From Bdellovibrionia bacterium (GTDB taxonomy: Bacteria; Bdellovibrionota; Bdellovibrionia; Bdellovibrionales; UBA1609): 35,894 bases of DNA. The notes under the pieces are model-generated. The model made no database searches, was not told the origin of the DNA, and saw only the letters and a program-made list of their open reading frames with translations. Where the stretch lies: positions 1-35,894 of the forward strand of contig JAUILT010000025.1 in the NCBI GenBank assembly GCA_030432925.1. The letters run 5' to 3'. The translations under genes were made by a program, and so were the position numbers. Of this stretch, positions 9,783 through 34,781 are shown one piece after another (position 1 is the first letter of the stretch; each line of letters opens with the position of its first letter).

Positions 9783-10976
9783 TTAGTACAATAAAAACTC
9801 TTGGCGCTCTTCCACCCAACGAGCTTCATCCTGCCTCAGGTAACTGTCTAACTCGGCAATCGAGCCAGCCTTCTCCACCCAACTTTTAAGAAAGGAACTA
9901 CCAGAGAGAATTTCTATTGGCAAAAGTTTCTCCTCGTACTCATAAGGAGGGTCTTTAAAAAGAGTAAATTCTGGATGAAGCTGATGAATGACATGAAACA
10001 CAGCTGATACAAATCGATACGGTTGAAAAGCCTCCTCTTGGTAACAACAATTATCAGCGTGGATCTGCACTCCAGCACACAGTTCACCTTGAAACTTATG
10101 AAAAGTCGGCTCGAAATAACACGGTCGTAGCAATACTCCTTTTGTCCAAGGCTCAAACTGCCGAACGACTTCAGACACTAGCTTTTCTGGATTCAGCATA
10201 GGCGCACCAATGACTTCCAGTGGGCGTGTGGTTCCCCGACCCTCACTCAAGTGAGTCCCTTCTACAAGAACACTTCCGGGATAGACACGACACCCAGAAA
10301 GGGTCGGTAAGTTTGGTGATGGGTTCAGCCAAGGCAAATGATCCGGCCACCCCCACTGATGGTTTTTATCCAAGTAGTAGTCTTGCATGGCAAACACTTT
10401 GAGATCTGTATCAAAACCCTGACCTTTTAAAAACCAATGGGCAGCTTCGGCCAACGTTAACCCATGCCGCATGGGAACCGCTCCCCCCCCTACAAAACTA
10501 TAAAAACCATCCTTAAGAATATTGCCTTCCACGGGGCGTCCTGCTGGGTTGGGCCGATCCAACACCCATAGAGACTTCCCGGTTCCAGAAAGATCTTCAA
10601 TCAAGTAGAACAAAGTGGTCAAAAATGTATAGATACGACAACCCACGTCCTGTAAATCAAAGAGCAAAATATCAAAGTGATCCATCATCTCTACTGTCGG
10701 ACGCCTGACTTGTCCATAAAGACTGAATGTAGGGACTCCCAGTTTGGGATCAGTAAAGTCATCACTTTCAATCATATTGTCCTGTTTTTCACCACGAATT
10801 CCGTGCTGAGGTCCAAATAGACAAGTCAGATTTACACCAACATCAGATAAGACATCCATCGTATGATAAAGATTAGGCAACACGGAGGCCGGATGTGCTA
10901 CCAATCCGACATTAGAGTTTTTTAAAAGCTCTAGCGATTTTTTATCTTCAAGAAGGACCTCTAACCCAAGCTTCAT
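9783..10976 (-). CDS. namZ: exo-beta-N-acetylmuramidase NamZ-like (DUF1343)
   Basis: The DUF1343 / YbbC family includes NamZ, an exo-lytic N-acetylmuramidase that removes MurNAc from the non-reducing end of peptidoglycan fragments. The 397-aa protein shows the family landmarks: GLEVLLED at the start, NVGLVAHPAS, LTCLFGPQHGIRGEKQDN, VPTFSLYG, DILLFDLQDVGCRIYTFLTTL, LWVLDRPNPAGRPVEGN, PMRHGLTLAEAA, and the LVEGTHLSEGRGTTRPLEVIGAP stretch (in two blocks). Length matches. The N-terminus MKLGLEVLLEDKKS has no signal peptide, unlike many exported members, so it may act on fragments already in the cytoplasm. It lies 41 bp downstream of gshB on the same strand. Confidence 0.9.
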   Translation of the reverse strand: MKLGLEVLLEDKKSLELLKNSNVGLVAHPASVLPNLYHTMDVLSDVGVNLTCLFGPQHGIRGEKQDNMIESDDFTDPKLGVPTFSLYGQVRRPTVEMMDHFDILLFDLQDVGCRIYTFLTTLFYLIEDLSGTGKSLWVLDRPNPAGRPVEGNILKDGFYSFVGGGAVPMRHGLTLAEAAHWFLKGQGFDTDLKVFAMQDYYLDKNHQWGWPDHLPWLNPSPNLPTLSGCRVYPGSVLVEGTHLSEGRGTTRPLEVIGAPMLNPEKLVSEVVRQFEPWTKGVLLRPCYFEPTFHKFQGELCAGVQIHADNCCYQEEAFQPYRFVSAVFHVIHQLHPEFTLFKDPPYEYEEKLLPIEILSGSSFLKSWVEKAGSIAELDSYLRQDEARWVEERQEFLLY

Positions 10977-11017
10977 GACCCTTGATGATACGAACTGGAA
11001 TCAAAGATGTCCAGAGC

Positions 11018-11947
11018 TCAATAGCCGGTGGTCAGCTTTTCTATAATACGAAGATGATGATTTTCTCCTGAAAAGCGCATCAACTCTTGCAGACCAGTAG
11101 GGCTGGTCACATTAATTTCTGTCAACCAGGGTCCCAACATATCAATTCCAACAAAAAATAGGCCCTGCTTCACTAAATCAGGCTTCAAGCTTGCGCAAAC
11201 TTCTAGATCTCGGTCTGTCAGGTCGCAAGGCTCCGCTGCTCCTCCTTGATCCAGGTTATTCAACTGACCAGGTACTGATGCTTTTCTCAATACACCACCA
11301 ATGGGCTCCCCATTAACAAGCAAAATTCTTTTGTCTCCATCTATTGCCTCCTTCAAATAAGGATTCACTACGATTTTTCGTGAGCCATGGTGAGTCAACT
11401 CTTCAATGGCAGACTTTAAACCTGGCACCTGACTGGCTTTTAAATGAAAGACCCCCCTTCCCCCATGCCCATCCAGTGGTTTTAAAATCACATCTTTGTG
11501 AACCCCTACATAACTCAAAATTTCTTGCTCATTCTCACTAATCAATGTTGGTGGACAGAATTTCTGAAATTTAAGAGCACTGAGCTTTTCATTCCAGTCC
11601 CTGAGGGCTCCTGGACGATTCACTACATTGGTGGTTGAGGGGAGAAAATCCAGAAGCAGGGTGCTGTAAAAATAGCGTCGGTCAAAGGGAGGGTCCTTAC
11701 GAACTACAACGGCATTCATTTCAGAAAGATTATGCGTTTGCCTATTACTTGTATCGAATTTTTTGGCATTATGAACAGTCACCACTCGAGTATTGCCTTT
11801 GACCTCTCCGTCCTCAAAAAATAGGTCATCCTGAAGCAAGTGATGAACCTCATAGCCCAGCTCAGCGGCGGCCACCATCAGTATCCAAGACGTGTCCTTT
11901 TCTACCTTGACCGTGTCCATTGGATCCATCAAAAAACAGATTCTCAC
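11018..11947 (-). CDS. gshB: glutathione synthetase
   Basis: GshB ligates gamma-glutamylcysteine to glycine with ATP. The 309-aa ATP-grasp protein has the family N-terminus (ICFLMDPMDTVKVEKDTS), VVVRKDPPFD, STTNVVNRPGALRDWNEKL, the ATP-binding ILKPLDGHGGRGVF, KRILLVNGEPIG, and the C-terminal LTEINVTSPTGLQEL metal and substrate region. Start is GTG 11947, with only a weak ribosome site. No gshA is in this window. Together with the glutaredoxin at 3742 it shows that the cell uses glutathione. Confidence 0.93.
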   Translation of the reverse strand: MRICFLMDPMDTVKVEKDTSWILMVAAAELGYEVHHLLQDDLFFEDGEVKGNTRVVTVHNAKKFDTSNRQTHNLSEMNAVVVRKDPPFDRRYFYSTLLLDFLPSTTNVVNRPGALRDWNEKLSALKFQKFCPPTLISENEQEILSYVGVHKDVILKPLDGHGGRGVFHLKASQVPGLKSAIEELTHHGSRKIVVNPYLKEAIDGDKRILLVNGEPIGGVLRKASVPGQLNNLDQGGAAEPCDLTDRDLEVCASLKPDLVKQGLFFVGIDMLGPWLTEINVTSPTGLQELMRFSGENHHLRIIEKLTTGY

Positions 11948-28932: not shown

Positions 28933-31059
28933 ATGAACAGGTATGCCCAGAGACTACTGATTGCTTTTTTGATTTCATCGGGGTGCTACACCTTCACATA
29001 TCTGTGGTACCAAAATGTTTCTGATAGCTCTCGATCACGAACCCAGCAAAACCCGGTGGCAAAGTTAAGTCGAGCCATCAATGACGTGCAACGAAAACCG
29101 TTGGCACGAGTGATCTGGGAAGAGATCACACTGAACGAAGACCTCTATGCCGGTGAGGCGATTCGAACCAGCGCAGCCTCCGAAGCTAAAATTCTTTTTC
29201 TAGAAAATGGAACTGAGGTTGAACTAGAACCCGAATCTTTAATTGTCTTAGAAAGAACAGATGATGGAATTGCTCTTGATTTTCTTAAAGGAAACCTGCT
29301 CGTAAAATCCAAAAAAGGAACTGAAGGCTCGACAAGCATCAAACTTAAAACTGGAGATAATGAAATTCAGCTCAATGATGCTGATCTCTCCCTCTCTAAA
29401 TCTGACAAAGGTAAGGTGGACCTAGAGGTTTTCAGCGGAACTGCGGAGTTGCGGCAAGATGGAAAATCCACCGTTCTGGATCAATCAAAGTCTGGAACAC
29501 TGGATGATAAAGGCCTAAAGATGAATAAAAGTCGGCTTCAAGTCCTTTCCCCTATACCTGGAACCCCTGTGTACATTGACCCTGCAAAAAAAGAAAAACT
29601 CCCACTGGTCTGGCAAAAAACTCCTCAAGGCTACACTGTTTATGTAGAAAGAGGGAGAGATCGAGGTCGACTTTACCGCAACCAACACCTGACCAGTCCA
29701 GGAGAAGCCGGAAACATAGAAGTTCCCACGAAGGTGGGTAAGTTCTTTTTTCGCCTTATCGCTGTCCCTGCAGACACGACAAAGCCAGAGTTAAGATCTC
29801 ATATTTTTCCCGTAGATATTTTGGCCAAATCCCCCCCCGTACTTCTGCAACCAGAAAAAAACCAACAGATTATTATTAAGCGCAACCAAACAAAATTAAA
29901 AATAAAATGGATCAGTAAAAATCTGTTTGAAAATATGGTTGTGGAAATCTCAAAAGACCCCGGTCTTCGACAAAAAGTACTCACTGAACCCCTTAACCCC
30001 AAACTCACATTTGGAGAAGTGGAATTCCAACAGCAAGGTCCATTTTATATGAGAATCACTGGCTATATGAAGACCAACAATAAGACTGAGCCGCTATCCA
30101 GTCCCGTCATTCCTTTTACGGTCAAAAAGGGGGTCGACCTTATTCCTCCACAACTGAGATCCCCGGCCCCCGATCAAAGACTGACATTTCAACAGGTCCA
30201 TGAGCAAGGGTTATTTCTATCCTGGGAGAACGTTCCGGGAATTAAAAACTACAAACTCCGCATTCAAAACTCCAAAAAGAAAATGATCGTTGATCGAGTG
30301 GTAAATACCAATCCCTTACGCCTCAACGATATTCTCCCCGGCAAGTACCGTTGGTCAGTGGCATCACTAGGGCCTGAAGATAAGCTTTCTAAGTACGCAA
30401 AACTAAGAACTTTTACTGTTGAAGAAATGCCTCGTATTCTCTGGGTGAATGGCTCAGATATGTCTCAGTACTTTTACTGGACCCAAACACCCCATCTTGT
30501 TGCTCAATGGCAACGCAACGTTAAAGATGTAAGGTCCTGGAGGGTTCGTTTTGCCACTGAAGGAGCAGTAATATCCGATGCTCAATGGCAACCCACTTCA
30601 GTGCCTATGGTGAAAATGCAAGTCCATCAAGATGGCATATACGATGTCGAAGTCGAAGGACTTAACGAAGAAGGCCAAGTCGTTGCTCGCAGCTCCAGAA
30701 AATCATTTACTATCGCACCTCAAGCTCTTCTTCCAGCTCCTCAGTTTGCTAAAAGCCTCCCAGAAACCCTTAAGGCCGATCGCCGTGGAAACCTCGCCGT
30801 AGAATGGACTCAAGTAAAAGGTGCCAAACACTATAAACTAGAGGTTTTAAGTTCAGATGGAGAAAGAGTGGTTTCTGAGAGCAAGGTGCAAAGAACCACA
30901 GCTTCGCTCAAAAAATTGCCCCCAGGTAATTATAAAATCACTGTAAAGGCTATTGATGAATACGACCGAGATGGAGAGTCTACAGAGGCAAAGGCTCTAG
31001 ATGTTCCAAAAAAGAGTGCCATCCGAGCTCCAAAAATAAAAAAACTAAAAGTGAAGTAA
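28933..31059 (+). CDS. FecR-domain envelope protein with repeated FnIII-like domains
   Basis: The 708-aa protein has one N-terminal TM helix (about 8-27) and a large periplasmic part. A FecR domain spans about 60-200 (NEDLYAGEAIRTSAASEAKILFLENGTEVELEPES in blocks, then LDFLKGNLLVKS and SGTAELRQDG), a fold used in sensing and in envelope assembly proteins. It is followed by four or five immunoglobulin/FnIII-like repeats (for example WENVPGIKNYKLRIQNS then LPGKYRWSVASLG; WTQVKGAKHYKLEVLSS then LPPGNYKITVKAID) and a Lys-rich end. The next gene begins 6 bases after the stop and encodes a protein with similar repeats plus a barrel, so the two likely work together across the envelope. Confidence 0.85.
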   Translation: MNRYAQRLLIAFLISSGCYTFTYLWYQNVSDSSRSRTQQNPVAKLSRAINDVQRKPLARVIWEEITLNEDLYAGEAIRTSAASEAKILFLENGTEVELEPESLIVLERTDDGIALDFLKGNLLVKSKKGTEGSTSIKLKTGDNEIQLNDADLSLSKSDKGKVDLEVFSGTAELRQDGKSTVLDQSKSGTLDDKGLKMNKSRLQVLSPIPGTPVYIDPAKKEKLPLVWQKTPQGYTVYVERGRDRGRLYRNQHLTSPGEAGNIEVPTKVGKFFFRLIAVPADTTKPELRSHIFPVDILAKSPPVLLQPEKNQQIIIKRNQTKLKIKWISKNLFENMVVEISKDPGLRQKVLTEPLNPKLTFGEVEFQQQGPFYMRITGYMKTNNKTEPLSSPVIPFTVKKGVDLIPPQLRSPAPDQRLTFQQVHEQGLFLSWENVPGIKNYKLRIQNSKKKMIVDRVVNTNPLRLNDILPGKYRWSVASLGPEDKLSKYAKLRTFTVEEMPRILWVNGSDMSQYFYWTQTPHLVAQWQRNVKDVRSWRVRFATEGAVISDAQWQPTSVPMVKMQVHQDGIYDVEVEGLNEEGQVVARSSRKSFTIAPQALLPAPQFAKSLPETLKADRRGNLAVEWTQVKGAKHYKLEVLSSDGERVVSESKVQRTTASLKKLPPGNYKITVKAIDEYDRDGESTEAKALDVPKKSAIRAPKIKKLKVK

Positions 31060-31065
31060 AAAAAT

Positions 31066-32733
31066 ATGCTTTTTAAAGTAGATAACACAGTAAAAACTCT
31101 CTCCTCTGACCGATTTTGTCTGAAATGGTTGAGCTTAGGTTTGCTGTGCTTTTTACTCCATTCGCCCTTAGCTCTAACCAAGGAGTTTCAACGAGCCGTA
31201 AACCTTGAGTTTGAGTCTATTCAAGGAGCTACTGGCTATGAAGTCAAAATTCAAAGAGTTCTTGCCAGTGGAAAGAAAAAACCACCAATCACTTTTCAAC
31301 TTAAAAAGCCTATTTGGGAGGCCTCAGTCAACTACGGTAAGTATGAGTTGTCTTTAAGAACTTTTGATGACCGAGGTGTTCCCGGTGACTGGTCAGAAAG
31401 CATGGAGTTTGTAGTTGCCCCTTTACCTCCTCAACTCATTGCTCCTCAACCCCATCAAAAAATAAAAACTGCTCAAGAAAACAGCTACCAAGTGCCATTT
31501 CAATGGCAGGCTGTCCCCGGTGCCAGCTCCTATGAGTTAATTATAACGGATACATCCAATAACAAAAGTAAAACCTATTTGGTAAAAAAGAAAAATCACT
31601 ATGATGCTGACCTAGAGGTTGCCAAAACTTATGAGTGGAAAGTTATATCTTTACTGTCAGAGGGTCTCAAAAGTGACTCTGATAGCTTCACACAAACATT
31701 TCAATTGATTGGAAAACCTCTCCAAACTCCAGATGTGGATGAGCCTTCTAGTAAATTTCCACAAAAAATCACTTGGAATAAACCAAAACATGCCGACTCT
31801 TATACTTATGCCCTCTACTACAAAACCAATTCTGGAAAATGGAAACAAATAAAGTCCCAGCGCCATATCAAAGAGCCACAAATCCCATTCAACTTAGCCC
31901 ACCCTACCGGAGAGTATCAAATCAAAGTACGGGCAGAAGGCCAAGGTCGCCAGCCCTCTCAACTGGCCTCTCAGACTTTTAAGGTTCAAGGGGGCTTAAG
32001 ATCACCCGCCGCCATAGAGGCTGCTCAACTCAAAGACTCTTTAAATAAGCCCACAAACTTTTATGCTATTGCCAGCTACTTTATAACCCAAATGAACTAC
32101 TCTGGAGACCGCTACGAAACCGGTAAGCGCTCTACATTTCAAGGGGTTGGTGGAACAGGACGATTAGGACTTGGTTACCAAAAATCTTTTCAACAATGGG
32201 GAGCTTTTGGAATTGTAGACCTTGGTGGAATCAACATTGGAGAAGAAAATTACACCTTTGCCTCGGCAGAACTCCACGGAACCTGGCAACTTCATTTAAC
32301 CCCGTTCAGTCTCTTGCAAGTATCCACCGGGCTTTACATGAAAGAACTGCCTGAACTACAAGGAAACGACACCGCAGGTATCACTGGGGTGAATAAGGCC
32401 AAAAACTTGGGTCCTCATTTAGGCTTCAAGTACTGGGTGCCCTACAGCTACAAATATGGCCTCCAACTGAACGGACGTGTGTATTATTCTCTTCTTGGAA
32501 CAGCTCCCAACGGCAAAGAGGTGCAACCGTCGATATCCTATCAGCTAGGAGTCTTGGGTAGTGTGAAACTAACAAAAAAGTTTATGGGGTATGCCGGCTA
32601 TGCCTACAGAGTGGATGAGTCTCACTATAGTGCTGATTCAGAGGCTGCATTTTCTAATGCCCAACCCGGAGACATCAATGTGATACAACTTCAGGGACAT
32701 TATCTCAACTTGATTCTAGAGTATTCATTCTAA
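31066..32733 (+). CDS. FnIII-repeat protein with C-terminal outer-membrane beta-barrel
   Basis: The 555-aa product has an N-terminal export signal (hydrophobic run LSLGLLCFLLHSPLALT, cleavage near residue 38), about three FnIII-like repeats (residues 40-320; WQAVPGASSYELIITDTS, AKTYEWKVISL, GEYQIKVRAEG) and from about 330 a beta-barrel-like domain of alternating strands (GRLGLGYQKSFQQWGAFGIVDLG, FTPF-like strands) ending in YLNLILEYSF, with a C-terminal Phe as in outer-membrane proteins. It starts 6 bases after the FecR gene. Family unknown to me. The FnIII repeats would hang in the periplasm, facing those of the FecR partner. Confidence 0.8.
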   Translation: MLFKVDNTVKTLSSDRFCLKWLSLGLLCFLLHSPLALTKEFQRAVNLEFESIQGATGYEVKIQRVLASGKKKPPITFQLKKPIWEASVNYGKYELSLRTFDDRGVPGDWSESMEFVVAPLPPQLIAPQPHQKIKTAQENSYQVPFQWQAVPGASSYELIITDTSNNKSKTYLVKKKNHYDADLEVAKTYEWKVISLLSEGLKSDSDSFTQTFQLIGKPLQTPDVDEPSSKFPQKITWNKPKHADSYTYALYYKTNSGKWKQIKSQRHIKEPQIPFNLAHPTGEYQIKVRAEGQGRQPSQLASQTFKVQGGLRSPAAIEAAQLKDSLNKPTNFYAIASYFITQMNYSGDRYETGKRSTFQGVGGTGRLGLGYQKSFQQWGAFGIVDLGGINIGEENYTFASAELHGTWQLHLTPFSLLQVSTGLYMKELPELQGNDTAGITGVNKAKNLGPHLGFKYWVPYSYKYGLQLNGRVYYSLLGTAPNGKEVQPSISYQLGVLGSVKLTKKFMGYAGYAYRVDESHYSADSEAAFSNAQPGDINVIQLQGHYLNLILEYSF

Positions 32734-32857: not shown

Positions 32858-33697
32858 ATGAAGATGTGTTATCAATATCGTCAAAATCAATGGCTTTGGA
32901 TATCTCTCCTTTTTCTAGGCCTCACCACTTTCTCCTCACAGGCTTTTGCTCAAAGTGGAAATCTCATAGAAGACGTCCGCTGCACAGGAGGCTCTTGTCT
33001 CACAGGAGGCTATGAAAAATATGATGCCTTTGGAAGCCTCATGGAGATTGGAACCTGTACAAATGGAGACTGTGCCACTCAAGGCTGGCAGGTATTGCGG
33101 CTCTCTGGTCTGAATACTCATGTTGTATGTAATGAAAATAGCTGTTTTGAGAACGGTTTTAGTGAAGTAAATACCAGCGACAACTCCCTTGTCTCTGTGA
33201 GAGCTTGTAATGAGGGAGACTGCCTACTGAATGGCTGGGTGGATCACACCTTTATTCCAGAAGAGATCATTGAGGGAATTCACTGCAACGCTCAAGGATG
33301 CGACTTTGGTTTTATAACTGAAGAGCTATCACAAATCATTGATGAAAATAATAAAAGCAGAAGAAGACTTGAGACTCGCAAAGCCCGTATAGAGTCCCGT
33401 ATTGCAGCCAAACAGATAAAACAAAATAAAATCCAACAACAAATAGATGCTCTCAAAAACCGTAAATATAAAAAAAGAAAATGTAAGAAAAAGAGTCACC
33501 ATCTGTTTAGACTAGTGAGACGTTATTTTAAAATTGAAATACAGATTCAAAAACTGCAGCAACGACAGGCCCGTATTCAAGAAAAACTCGACGCGATTGT
33601 TGACCCAACAATCGTACTGAGCTCCAAACAGGCATTTTGCATTAGCCCTGGCGGATGCTTTTCTGATGGCTATATGGTTTATACCCAAAATGATTGA
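32858..33697 (+). CDS. secreted Cys-x4-Cys aromatic-repeat protein with basic coiled coil (copy 1)
   Basis: The start is ATG 32858 (279 aa): GAGGAA ends 7 bases upstream and a signal peptide follows (cleavage after A31, AFA-Q). The mature part has six repeats of C-x4-C-x3/4-G-aromatic: C42/C47 (GY), C67/C72 (GW), C91/C96 (GF), C117/C122 (GW), C143/C148 (GF) and C261/C267 (GY, C-x5-C). The first five are spaced 24-26 residues. Between repeats 5 and 6 lies a coiled-coil of about 100 residues (155-250), strongly basic (KNRKYKKRKCKKKS). I know no named family. Copy 2 follows at 34068 with the same plan. Distinctive conserved phrase: NGDCATQGW. Confidence 0.85.
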   Translation: MKMCYQYRQNQWLWISLLFLGLTTFSSQAFAQSGNLIEDVRCTGGSCLTGGYEKYDAFGSLMEIGTCTNGDCATQGWQVLRLSGLNTHVVCNENSCFENGFSEVNTSDNSLVSVRACNEGDCLLNGWVDHTFIPEEIIEGIHCNAQGCDFGFITEELSQIIDENNKSRRRLETRKARIESRIAAKQIKQNKIQQQIDALKNRKYKKRKCKKKSHHLFRLVRRYFKIEIQIQKLQQRQARIQEKLDAIVDPTIVLSSKQAFCISPGGCFSDGYMVYTQND

Positions 33698-33727
33698 GTG
33701 AATTTATTTGACTGACTCGCTCTCTAC

Positions 33728-33750
33728 AAAAAGGTATGTCGTACCTTTTT
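33728..33750 (+). terminator. terminator of repeat-protein copy 1
   Basis: AAAAAGGTA (33728-33736), loop TGTCG, TACCTTTTT (33742-33750): a 9-bp perfect stem whose 3' arm supplies the T-run. It is 30 bases after the stop at 33697, so copy 1 and copy 2 are separate transcripts. The 3' arm shares 13 bases (TCGTACCTTTTTG) with 15954-15966. Confidence 0.6.
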
Positions 33751-33871
33751 GAGACTGTTGCACCGCAAAGACCTTACAAAACCTGTTGCAGTCATTGGCC
33801 CCTGTCCTGGCCCTGTTTCTTCTTAAAAAACTTTGCAAAATCATTATGTTACGGGCGATGCGCTTATCCAC

Positions 33872-33902
33872 GTTAAAAGGTTTAACAGGTGTCAAATGAC
33901 AC
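33872..33902 (+). promoter_or_regulatory. two adjacent palindromes, possible operator before copy 2
   Basis: GTTAAAAGGTTTAAC (33872-33886, arms of 6 with a 3-base centre) and GTGTCAAATGACAC (33889-33902, arms of 6 with a 2-base centre) are separated by two bases. Both are perfect inverted repeats; the second resembles, but does not match, CRP-type sites (TGTGA-N6-TCACA). They sit 165 bases before ATG 34068. A role as binding sites is inference. Confidence 0.42.
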
Positions 33903-34067
33903 ACTCAGGCCCAAGACATTTGGACATTTCACTCGACTTTAGCCTCGTTTATTTTGTTCTGCCATGGCACAGCCTTCGCTAAACCAATGAAGCAGCGAAC
34001 GTTACCAAAAAGCTCACGTCAGTAGACAGTTCATAAACCTTTAAACAACTTCAATGAGGAACCTAAT

Positions 34068-34781
34068 ATGAAAGCACTTATGTTTATAATCACAGGAATG
34101 ATCGCCAGTTTATCTGCACAGGCACAGGAACAAAAACTCTGCACAGGAGGGGATTGTTTAACCTCTGGATATGAATATTATGATCAGTTTGGAAGTCTCA
34201 GTGAAATTGCTACGTGCAACAGCGGCGACTGTGCCACTCAAGGGTGGACTATTTTAAGAGCGACTGGCGTCAATACCAGTGTGGTTTGCTCAGACAATAG
34301 CTGCTTTGGAAAAGGCTTTCAAGAAATCAACCCTTCCAATAACAATGAAATGATTCGCACCCGAACTTGTGCGGCTGCAACTAGTGGTGGCGCGGGTGAT
34401 TGCTTTGCCAACGGATGGGAGGATGAACACTTTGGCGTCAATGCCCGAGTCGAGCAGATCTCCTGTACAGATGGTATCAGCTGTAAAAATGGCTTTATCA
34501 TTGAAACAATTGTTGATCAAACGGCTCTCCTTGAAGAAGAAATCACCGATTTAAAAGCTGAAGCTCAAGCCAAGAAGATAGAACTCAAGGAGTATTTAAA
34601 GACCAACCATAAAATGAATTTCACTCTTTTAAGAGAAATCATTTCTCTGAAAAAGCAAATCCTCCAGTTAAAAAAGGAGCTCCGCAACGGGGACGGTGTG
34701 CAAGTTGTAGACAGCCAAGAGGCCGTTTGCCTCTCTCCTGGCGGATGCTTCAAAGATGGGTATCAACTCTTTGAATATTAA
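34068..34781 (+). CDS. secreted Cys-x4-Cys aromatic-repeat protein with coiled coil (copy 2)
   Basis: The 237-aa paralog of the protein at 32858 has a signal peptide (MKALMFIITGMIASLSAQA). Repeats are C25/C30 (GY), C50/C55 (GW), C74/C79 (GF), C101/C112 (GW), C133/C139 (GF) and C221/C227 (GY). Repeat 4 has a six-residue insertion between its two Cys (TSGGAG region), so that pair is C-x10-C. The coiled coil between repeats 5 and 6 (about 150-207) is shorter, about 60 residues, with mixed charge, unlike the basic one of copy 1. Phrases GSLSEIATC and GDCATQGW match copy 1 almost word for word. Own ribosome site GAGGA before ATG, own terminator downstream. Confidence 0.87.
   Translation: MKALMFIITGMIASLSAQAQEQKLCTGGDCLTSGYEYYDQFGSLSEIATCNSGDCATQGWTILRATGVNTSVVCSDNSCFGKGFQEINPSNNNEMIRTRTCAAATSGGAGDCFANGWEDEHFGVNARVEQISCTDGISCKNGFIIETIVDQTALLEEEITDLKAEAQAKKIELKEYLKTNHKMNFTLLREIISLKKQILQLKKELRNGDGVQVVDSQEAVCLSPGGCFKDGYQLFEY

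Follow-up and report, generated by a model that had tools for sequence, protein, structure and literature searches.

A family of exported proteins with six cysteine-pair units, and a helical insertion in two paralogues of a Bdellovibrionia bacterium

Results and Discussion

Genes A and B of the window, by which we mean the whole 35,894-nucleotide stretch analysed here (an entire contig, C145, of an assembly of 3.04 Mb in 172 contigs that is 96% complete), encode two secreted paralogues built from six short cysteine-pair units. The reading that we favour, with a probability of roughly 0.6, is that each is a periplasmic or secreted binding head, ring-shaped and stapled by disulfides, with a projecting arm; closure of the ring, pairing of the disulfides and binding are what we infer in it. 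The architecture of the two proteins is well supported, and there is hardly any doubt that they belong to an uncatalogued family and that the helical insertion lies at the turn of hairpin 5.

Units and export signals of A and B

Gene A occupies positions 32858..33697 of the plus strand, on which the features of both genes lie (ATG at 32858, stop at 33697), and its product of 279 residues consists of a signal peptide, five units, a helical insert and a sixth unit. The probable signal peptide, read by eye from the sequence, comprises residues 1-31 (32858..32950) and ends in AFA. The units are CTGGSCLTGGY (unit 1, 32981..33013), CTNGDCATQGW (unit 2, 33056..33088), CNENSCFENGF (unit 3, 33128..33160), CNEGDCLLNGW (unit 4, 33206..33238), CNAQGCDFGF (unit 5, 33284..33313) and, after the insert, CISPGGCFSDGY (unit 6, 33638..33673). 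Gene B (34068..34781; ATG at 34068, stop at 34781) encodes 237 residues in the same layout with exactly 12 cysteines, and its units are CTGGDCLTSGY (34140..34172), CNSGDCATQGW (34215..34247), CSDNSCFGKGF (34287..34319), CAAATSGGAGDCFANGW with a long loop (unit 4, 34368..34418), CTDGISCKNGF (34464..34496) and CLSPGGCFKDGY (unit 6, 34728..34763).

Each protein thus carries six C-x(4-10)-C-x(2-4)-G-aromatic units, and both combine an export signal with exactly six units of the wider form C-x(3-18)-C-x(2-4)-G and 12 cysteines. When mature A and B were shuffled with composition preserved (20,000 times each), no shuffled sequence held more than two units; the six short units that the initial annotation had described in each protein are real, and their coordinates exact. 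Its account of their geometry was partly right: two cysteines five residues apart are found in five units of A and three of B, but unit 4 of B is C-x10-C, and C-x5-C occurs in units 5 and 6 of B and in unit 6 of A. Likewise, the first five units are spaced by 24-26 residues throughout A, in which units start at residues 42, 67, 91, 117, 143 and 261 (spacings 25, 24, 26, 26 and 118), but not in B (starts 25, 50, 74, 101, 133 and 221; spacings 25, 24, 27, 32 and 88), where 27 and 32 occur. That A and B are secreted paralogues is supported by a signal-peptide-like N-terminus in each, with a putative cleavage site, judged by eye, between AFA and Q in A and between AQA and Q in B, and by 54% identity between the two proteins outside the insert.

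Members and distribution of the family

A search of the same genome revealed a third paralogue on contig C95, 166 residues long, with six units and without the coiled coil. At a loose limit (E<=1), 20 of the 47 genomes of the same GTDB family gave matches, and a profile built from 17 members gave matches at E<=0.001 in 14 of the 141 genomes of the order and in 24 of the 369 genomes of the phylum. These Bdellovibrionota members, of about 165-200 residues, have a signal peptide and six units but lack the coiled coil. As to the expectation of many Bdellovibrionota matches with the same layout and no Pfam entry, the six units bore it out; the coiled coil, known from only three proteins, did not. 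When 84,980 species were searched with a two-unit DNA pattern, which recovers 26 of the 28 loci with a known member, more members came to light in Bdellovibrionota and, unexpectedly, in Myxococcota; the pattern demands two strict neighbouring units, and members in other phyla may have escaped it. Both bacterial groups are known for predators.

In the Myxococcota (Nannocystis, Polyangium, Paraliomyxa, Sandaracinaceae and unclassified MAGs) the six units form a C-terminal domain, which in Nannocystis and Polyangium lies behind an apparent lipobox and a charged helical stretch. The unit-for-unit alignment of the Bdellovibrionota and Myxococcota profiles extends over 133 columns (probability 99.1%, E 9e-19). 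A clear match was obtained in 5 of the 284 genomes of the Myxococcota phylum sample, and the distribution is therefore patchy. Seven of the Myxococcota proteins (L066, L074, L075, L103, L116, L133 and L164) appear to be lipoproteins; their N-terminal part is charged and helical, and their middle units are nearly identical.

DNA-pattern matches outside the two phyla lacked six units when they were read, the pattern also picked up low-complexity and antisense frames, and the profile search was negative in four genomes that had such out-of-phylum matches. The profile found no match in 399 genomes of the Halomonas phylum, and only one broken, 44-residue chance match in 297 genomes of the Dyadobacter phylum; empty phylum searches are weak when no positive genome is at hand, and the same profile did match in Myxococcota. 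A plasmid search gave no match, and a literature search no description of the six-unit family. The initial annotation had recognised no named family, and indeed no relative was found in Pfam, NCBIfam or the PDB; new to all three is thus a family with a strong structural rule of six that spans two phyla including many predators. Matches of Myxococcota members to AcrIIA4, Tcp10_C and Beta_helix were rejected, since they are short (about one unit) and summed over repeats, and those inspected fall below the curated cut-offs.

Two further sequences deserve mention. A viral-labelled contig (L205; IMG/VR UViG_3300010401_000061, complement of 10448-11176) has a single open frame in which a Fis-like helix-turn-helix and a hydrophobic stretch precede a six-unit domain, so that the frame is either two genes or a membrane-anchored sensor-regulator; support for phage origin from PHROGs is thin (one transglycosylase). 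A Bacteroidales protein (L097), in which another kind of Cys-rich unit (CCDGRICPPGTECCGxxCMNxGY) is repeated at least 11 times, is unrelated to the six-unit family.

Constant number of units and probable closure of the sheet

In the alignment of A with 32 relatives, each of the 33 members has six units, neither more nor fewer, and unit positions hold at least 12 cysteines, 12 in Bdellovibrionota and 14 in Myxococcota. Of the extra Myxococcota pair, one cysteine precedes unit 6 by two residues and the other follows the first cysteine of that unit by 12, positions that fit antiparallel neighbours. The middle units of a Myxococcota member resemble one another more than they resemble those of other proteins, arguing that they have been copied or homogenised, and yet their count is still six. 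It is mainly from this number, which never departs from six, that we infer closure of the sheet. Among Bdellovibrionota, units three apart (1/4 and 3/6) are slightly more alike, a weak sign that an older three-unit duplication may lie behind the six.

AlphaFold2 was run on B and on the compact relative L079 with alignments of 33 and 28 rows, respectively. The B model reached a pLDDT of 90.8 and a pTM of 0.75, and the 12-stranded L079 model a pLDDT of 93.3 and a pTM of 0.82; in both, six hairpins supply 12 short strands, and within the Cys loop a short helical turn begins at the second cysteine. The exported core would be a single six-unit domain, in which a unit consists of a strand, a Cys-closed loop with a short helical turn, a Gly-aromatic strand and a tight turn; six such units make 12 short antiparallel strands. 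Closed on itself, the sheet would form a ring or shallow barrel, one rim carrying the C-x4-C loops and the opposite rim the tight turns. Strand 18-24 of the L079 model overhangs its sole sequence-neighbour partner (34-38), leaving residues 18-19 without a partner there; as modelled, pairing of these residues with the C-terminal strand 160-164 would fit closure. We consider a closed ring probable.

One could instead envisage an open, extended antiparallel hairpin sheet like that of MORN repeats, in which six would be a historical number, and there are points in its favour: the weak Foldseek matches repeatedly include MORN proteins, junctophilins and OspA, and some of them (MORN, OspA) are open single-layer sheets that were counted against the closed ring, and MORN repeats are, like the six-unit repeats, short beta-hairpins of similar length (about 24 residues). 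However, superposition on the extended single-layer sheets of MORN1 and junctophilin entries was poor, with TM 0.15-0.25 and an rmsd of 9.5-14 A, near 10 A or more. The MORN motif has no cysteines, and no MORN or MORN-variant Pfam match was found in the window proteins or in the sets of 17, 28 and 6 relatives. MORN proteins vary in repeat number, unlike the present family, in which six is constant over two phyla despite the homogenised units of the Myxococcota. We therefore regard the open sheet as rather unlikely and favour the closed ring.

Foldseek searches of the PDB and a viral library returned nothing at E<0.001. The best viral fold matches of the compact model were three uncharacterised giant-virus proteins (BFVD A0A481ZC52, A0A6N1P065 and A0A3G4ZR97), with a probability of 0.96-1.0 and a query-normalised TM of 0.51-0.54, but with E values of 0.017-0.19. 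Being confident and yet without a significant counterpart in the PDB, the model makes a good target for structural studies.

Likeness to beta-flowers and Tubby-like barrels

Beta-flowers are shallow barrels of 8, 10 or 12 short antiparallel strands with 4-, 5- or 6-fold symmetry (PF21784, PF21785 and PF21786 of clan CL0395; Durairaj et al. 2023, PMC10584680). The sixfold form has 12 short antiparallel strands in hairpin repeats, with loops of about nine residues on one side and short turns on the other; it had no PDB match, some of its members are lipoproteins, and its discoverers likened it to the Tubby-like lipid binders, which have a 12-stranded barrel (PMC10584680). Among known architectures, the sixfold beta-flower or Tubby-like barrel comes closest to the six-unit family, which shares strand number, hairpin repeats and loop asymmetry with it, a likeness of fold by description: 12 strands in six hairpins are predicted for the family, and the barrel would follow from the closure argued above. 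Unlike the beta-flower, the six-unit family has a Cys pair in each long loop and, in A and B, a helical arm; its unit is longer (about 24 residues against about 20), and it lacks a hydrophobic helix at the C-terminus. The motif [DNEQ]xxG, semiconserved at the hairpin tips of beta-flowers, was only mildly enriched, at 46 of 163 tips against 24 expected from shuffled tips.

By analogy, the six-unit domain may work like a beta-flower or a Tubby-like barrel, and this would allow a lipid-binding function, with a lipid or a hydrophobic helix in the channel, in envelope lipid traffic or sensing. The shared layout speaks for this possibility. In contrast, hmmscan gave no match to PF21784-PF21786 for the window proteins (E<=10), for sets of 17 and 28 relatives (E<=1) or for 6 relatives (E<=10), and hhalign against three members of PF21786, one of the three models, gave probabilities of 0.5% and 0.05%. 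Membership in the beta-flower families by sequence was rejected on these grounds, and a C-terminal helix of hydrophobic character is missing. The Tubby C-terminal domain has much longer strands, a central helix and no Cys pattern, Pfam gave no match to it for the window proteins and 6 relatives, and the weak Foldseek match to TULP1 (E 3.0, TM 0.15) is not significant. Lipid binding seems a rather doubtful use of the ring.

Gene neighbourhood

In 12 Bdellovibrionota genomes (L172-L177, L179, L180, L183, L187, L188 and L088), a gene for a compact family member stands directly upstream of tilS, and ftsH, cdaA, cdaR and glmM come next wherever the contig is long enough. The linkage was seen in 11 of 20 extracted regions, where nnr-type genes continue the series, and a twelfth case, G009:C191, comes from the window's own genus. 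In most linked loci the reading frame of tilS begins before the six-unit gene has ended, and in many the tilS ATG falls within the Gly-Trp codons (GGATGG) of the last unit.

Given this arrangement, compact members might be periplasmic partners of FtsH or CdaA-CdaR, with A and B as paralogues that have left the role. However, tilS lies on contig C98 of the window's own genome with no compact gene beside it, the linkage is absent at about ten other loci, and the coupling with cytosolic tilS may be merely expressional; the partnership is therefore unlikely, although the linkage to tilS-ftsH-cdaA-cdaR-glmM provides a testable lead to a periplasmic factor near FtsH and c-di-AMP synthesis. Also unlikely is the boldest reading, in which a new fold family in Bdellovibrionota and Myxococcota, a disulfide-stapled closed beta-ring of six hairpins, would serve in its compact form as a periplasmic FtsH or CdaA-CdaR (c-di-AMP) partner, while in the window's lineage a helical-hairpin arm would have been acquired, making the protein an envelope adaptor with two contacts.

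Upstream of A and B lie a gene for a FecR-like/Ig protein and then one for an Ig/barrel-like protein. The proposal that the pair sits beside envelope genes is correct locally, with the FecR-like/Ig protein and an apparent outer-membrane barrel just upstream, but the region at 19-25 kb holds a propionate-type cluster. The adjacent pair at 28933-32733, a FecR-like/Ig repeat protein with weak similarity to Leptospira LIC11435 followed by a protein with Ig and barrel-like parts, has the look of a surface system made up of two genes. Among the extracted regions, no neighbours were shared between the window pair and other members, the neighbours in the window indicated no partner for A or B, and a promoter and terminator scan of the A/B region performed no better than shuffles.

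The predicted helical arm

The insert occupies the turn of hairpin 5 in A, in B and in a protein of one congener (G009). That a helical insertion of considerable length is present is borne out: it covers 95 residues in A (158-252; 33329..33613) and 64 in B (149-212; 34512..34703). In the B model, strands 142-150 and 211-221 flank two helices (151-180 and 185-207) with a short connecting loop; an antiparallel helical hairpin is accordingly what the model very strongly suggests for the insert, and A would have the same by extension from B. In A, B and the one relative, an antiparallel helical hairpin of 64-95 residues would replace the tight turn of hairpin 5 and project from the rim. Because both ends of the arm lie together, unit 6 stays in the same domain. 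Thus, an arm can be added to such a ring without breaking it.

The initial annotation had taken the units for independent disulfide loops and had seen in the coiled coil a spacer or an oligomerisation rod displacing unit 6. Helices do part units 5 and 6 in the sequences of A and B, but six contiguous units without helices are the normal form in the relatives, and the two-helix hairpin of the B model sits between neighbouring strands with its ends side by side; this earlier model is very improbable. FemA/FemX and MacA/MexA likewise have an antiparallel helical hairpin inserted in a globular domain, and FemA was a Foldseek match over 89 columns (probability 0.99, E 0.15); the analogy is limited to the arm, since their host domains are unlike the six-unit domain. 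Pfam matches of the helices to FapA, PI3K iSH2 and Rootletin fell below the cut-off and were set aside as coiled-coil noise.

A tree groups A and B with the G009 protein in a single clade (100/99) that has a long stem, and B is nearer to G009 than to A. From this branching, the insert probably arose once, and the duplication probably preceded the split. The inserts of B and G009 are both of 64 residues and 48% identical (core, 52%); as length and identity have been kept while third positions are near saturation, the insert appears to be under selection. That of A has diverged, with 23% identity to B.

Each Cys pair most likely staples its own loop, and within-unit disulfides, the simplest pairing and the one proposed at the outset, are quite probable. 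A redox or metal protein using the 12 thiols is scarcely credible: the Cys pairs are invariant, but a pattern of C-x4-C to about C-x18-C (unit 4) is disulfide-like and not that of a metal knuckle, and the proteins are exported.

As to use, the favoured disulfide-stapled head with its arm would most likely serve as a rigid binding module of the envelope, with the head binding one partner or a lipid and the arm another; we propose this adaptor function only tentatively. In A, the arm is strongly basic and the core acidic (net charge +20 in the insert and -16 in the core), and the arm might perhaps reach an anionic surface. The most basic stretch of the A insert (KYKKRKCKKK) is found near its middle, the expected tip, and contains one extra, unpaired-looking cysteine.
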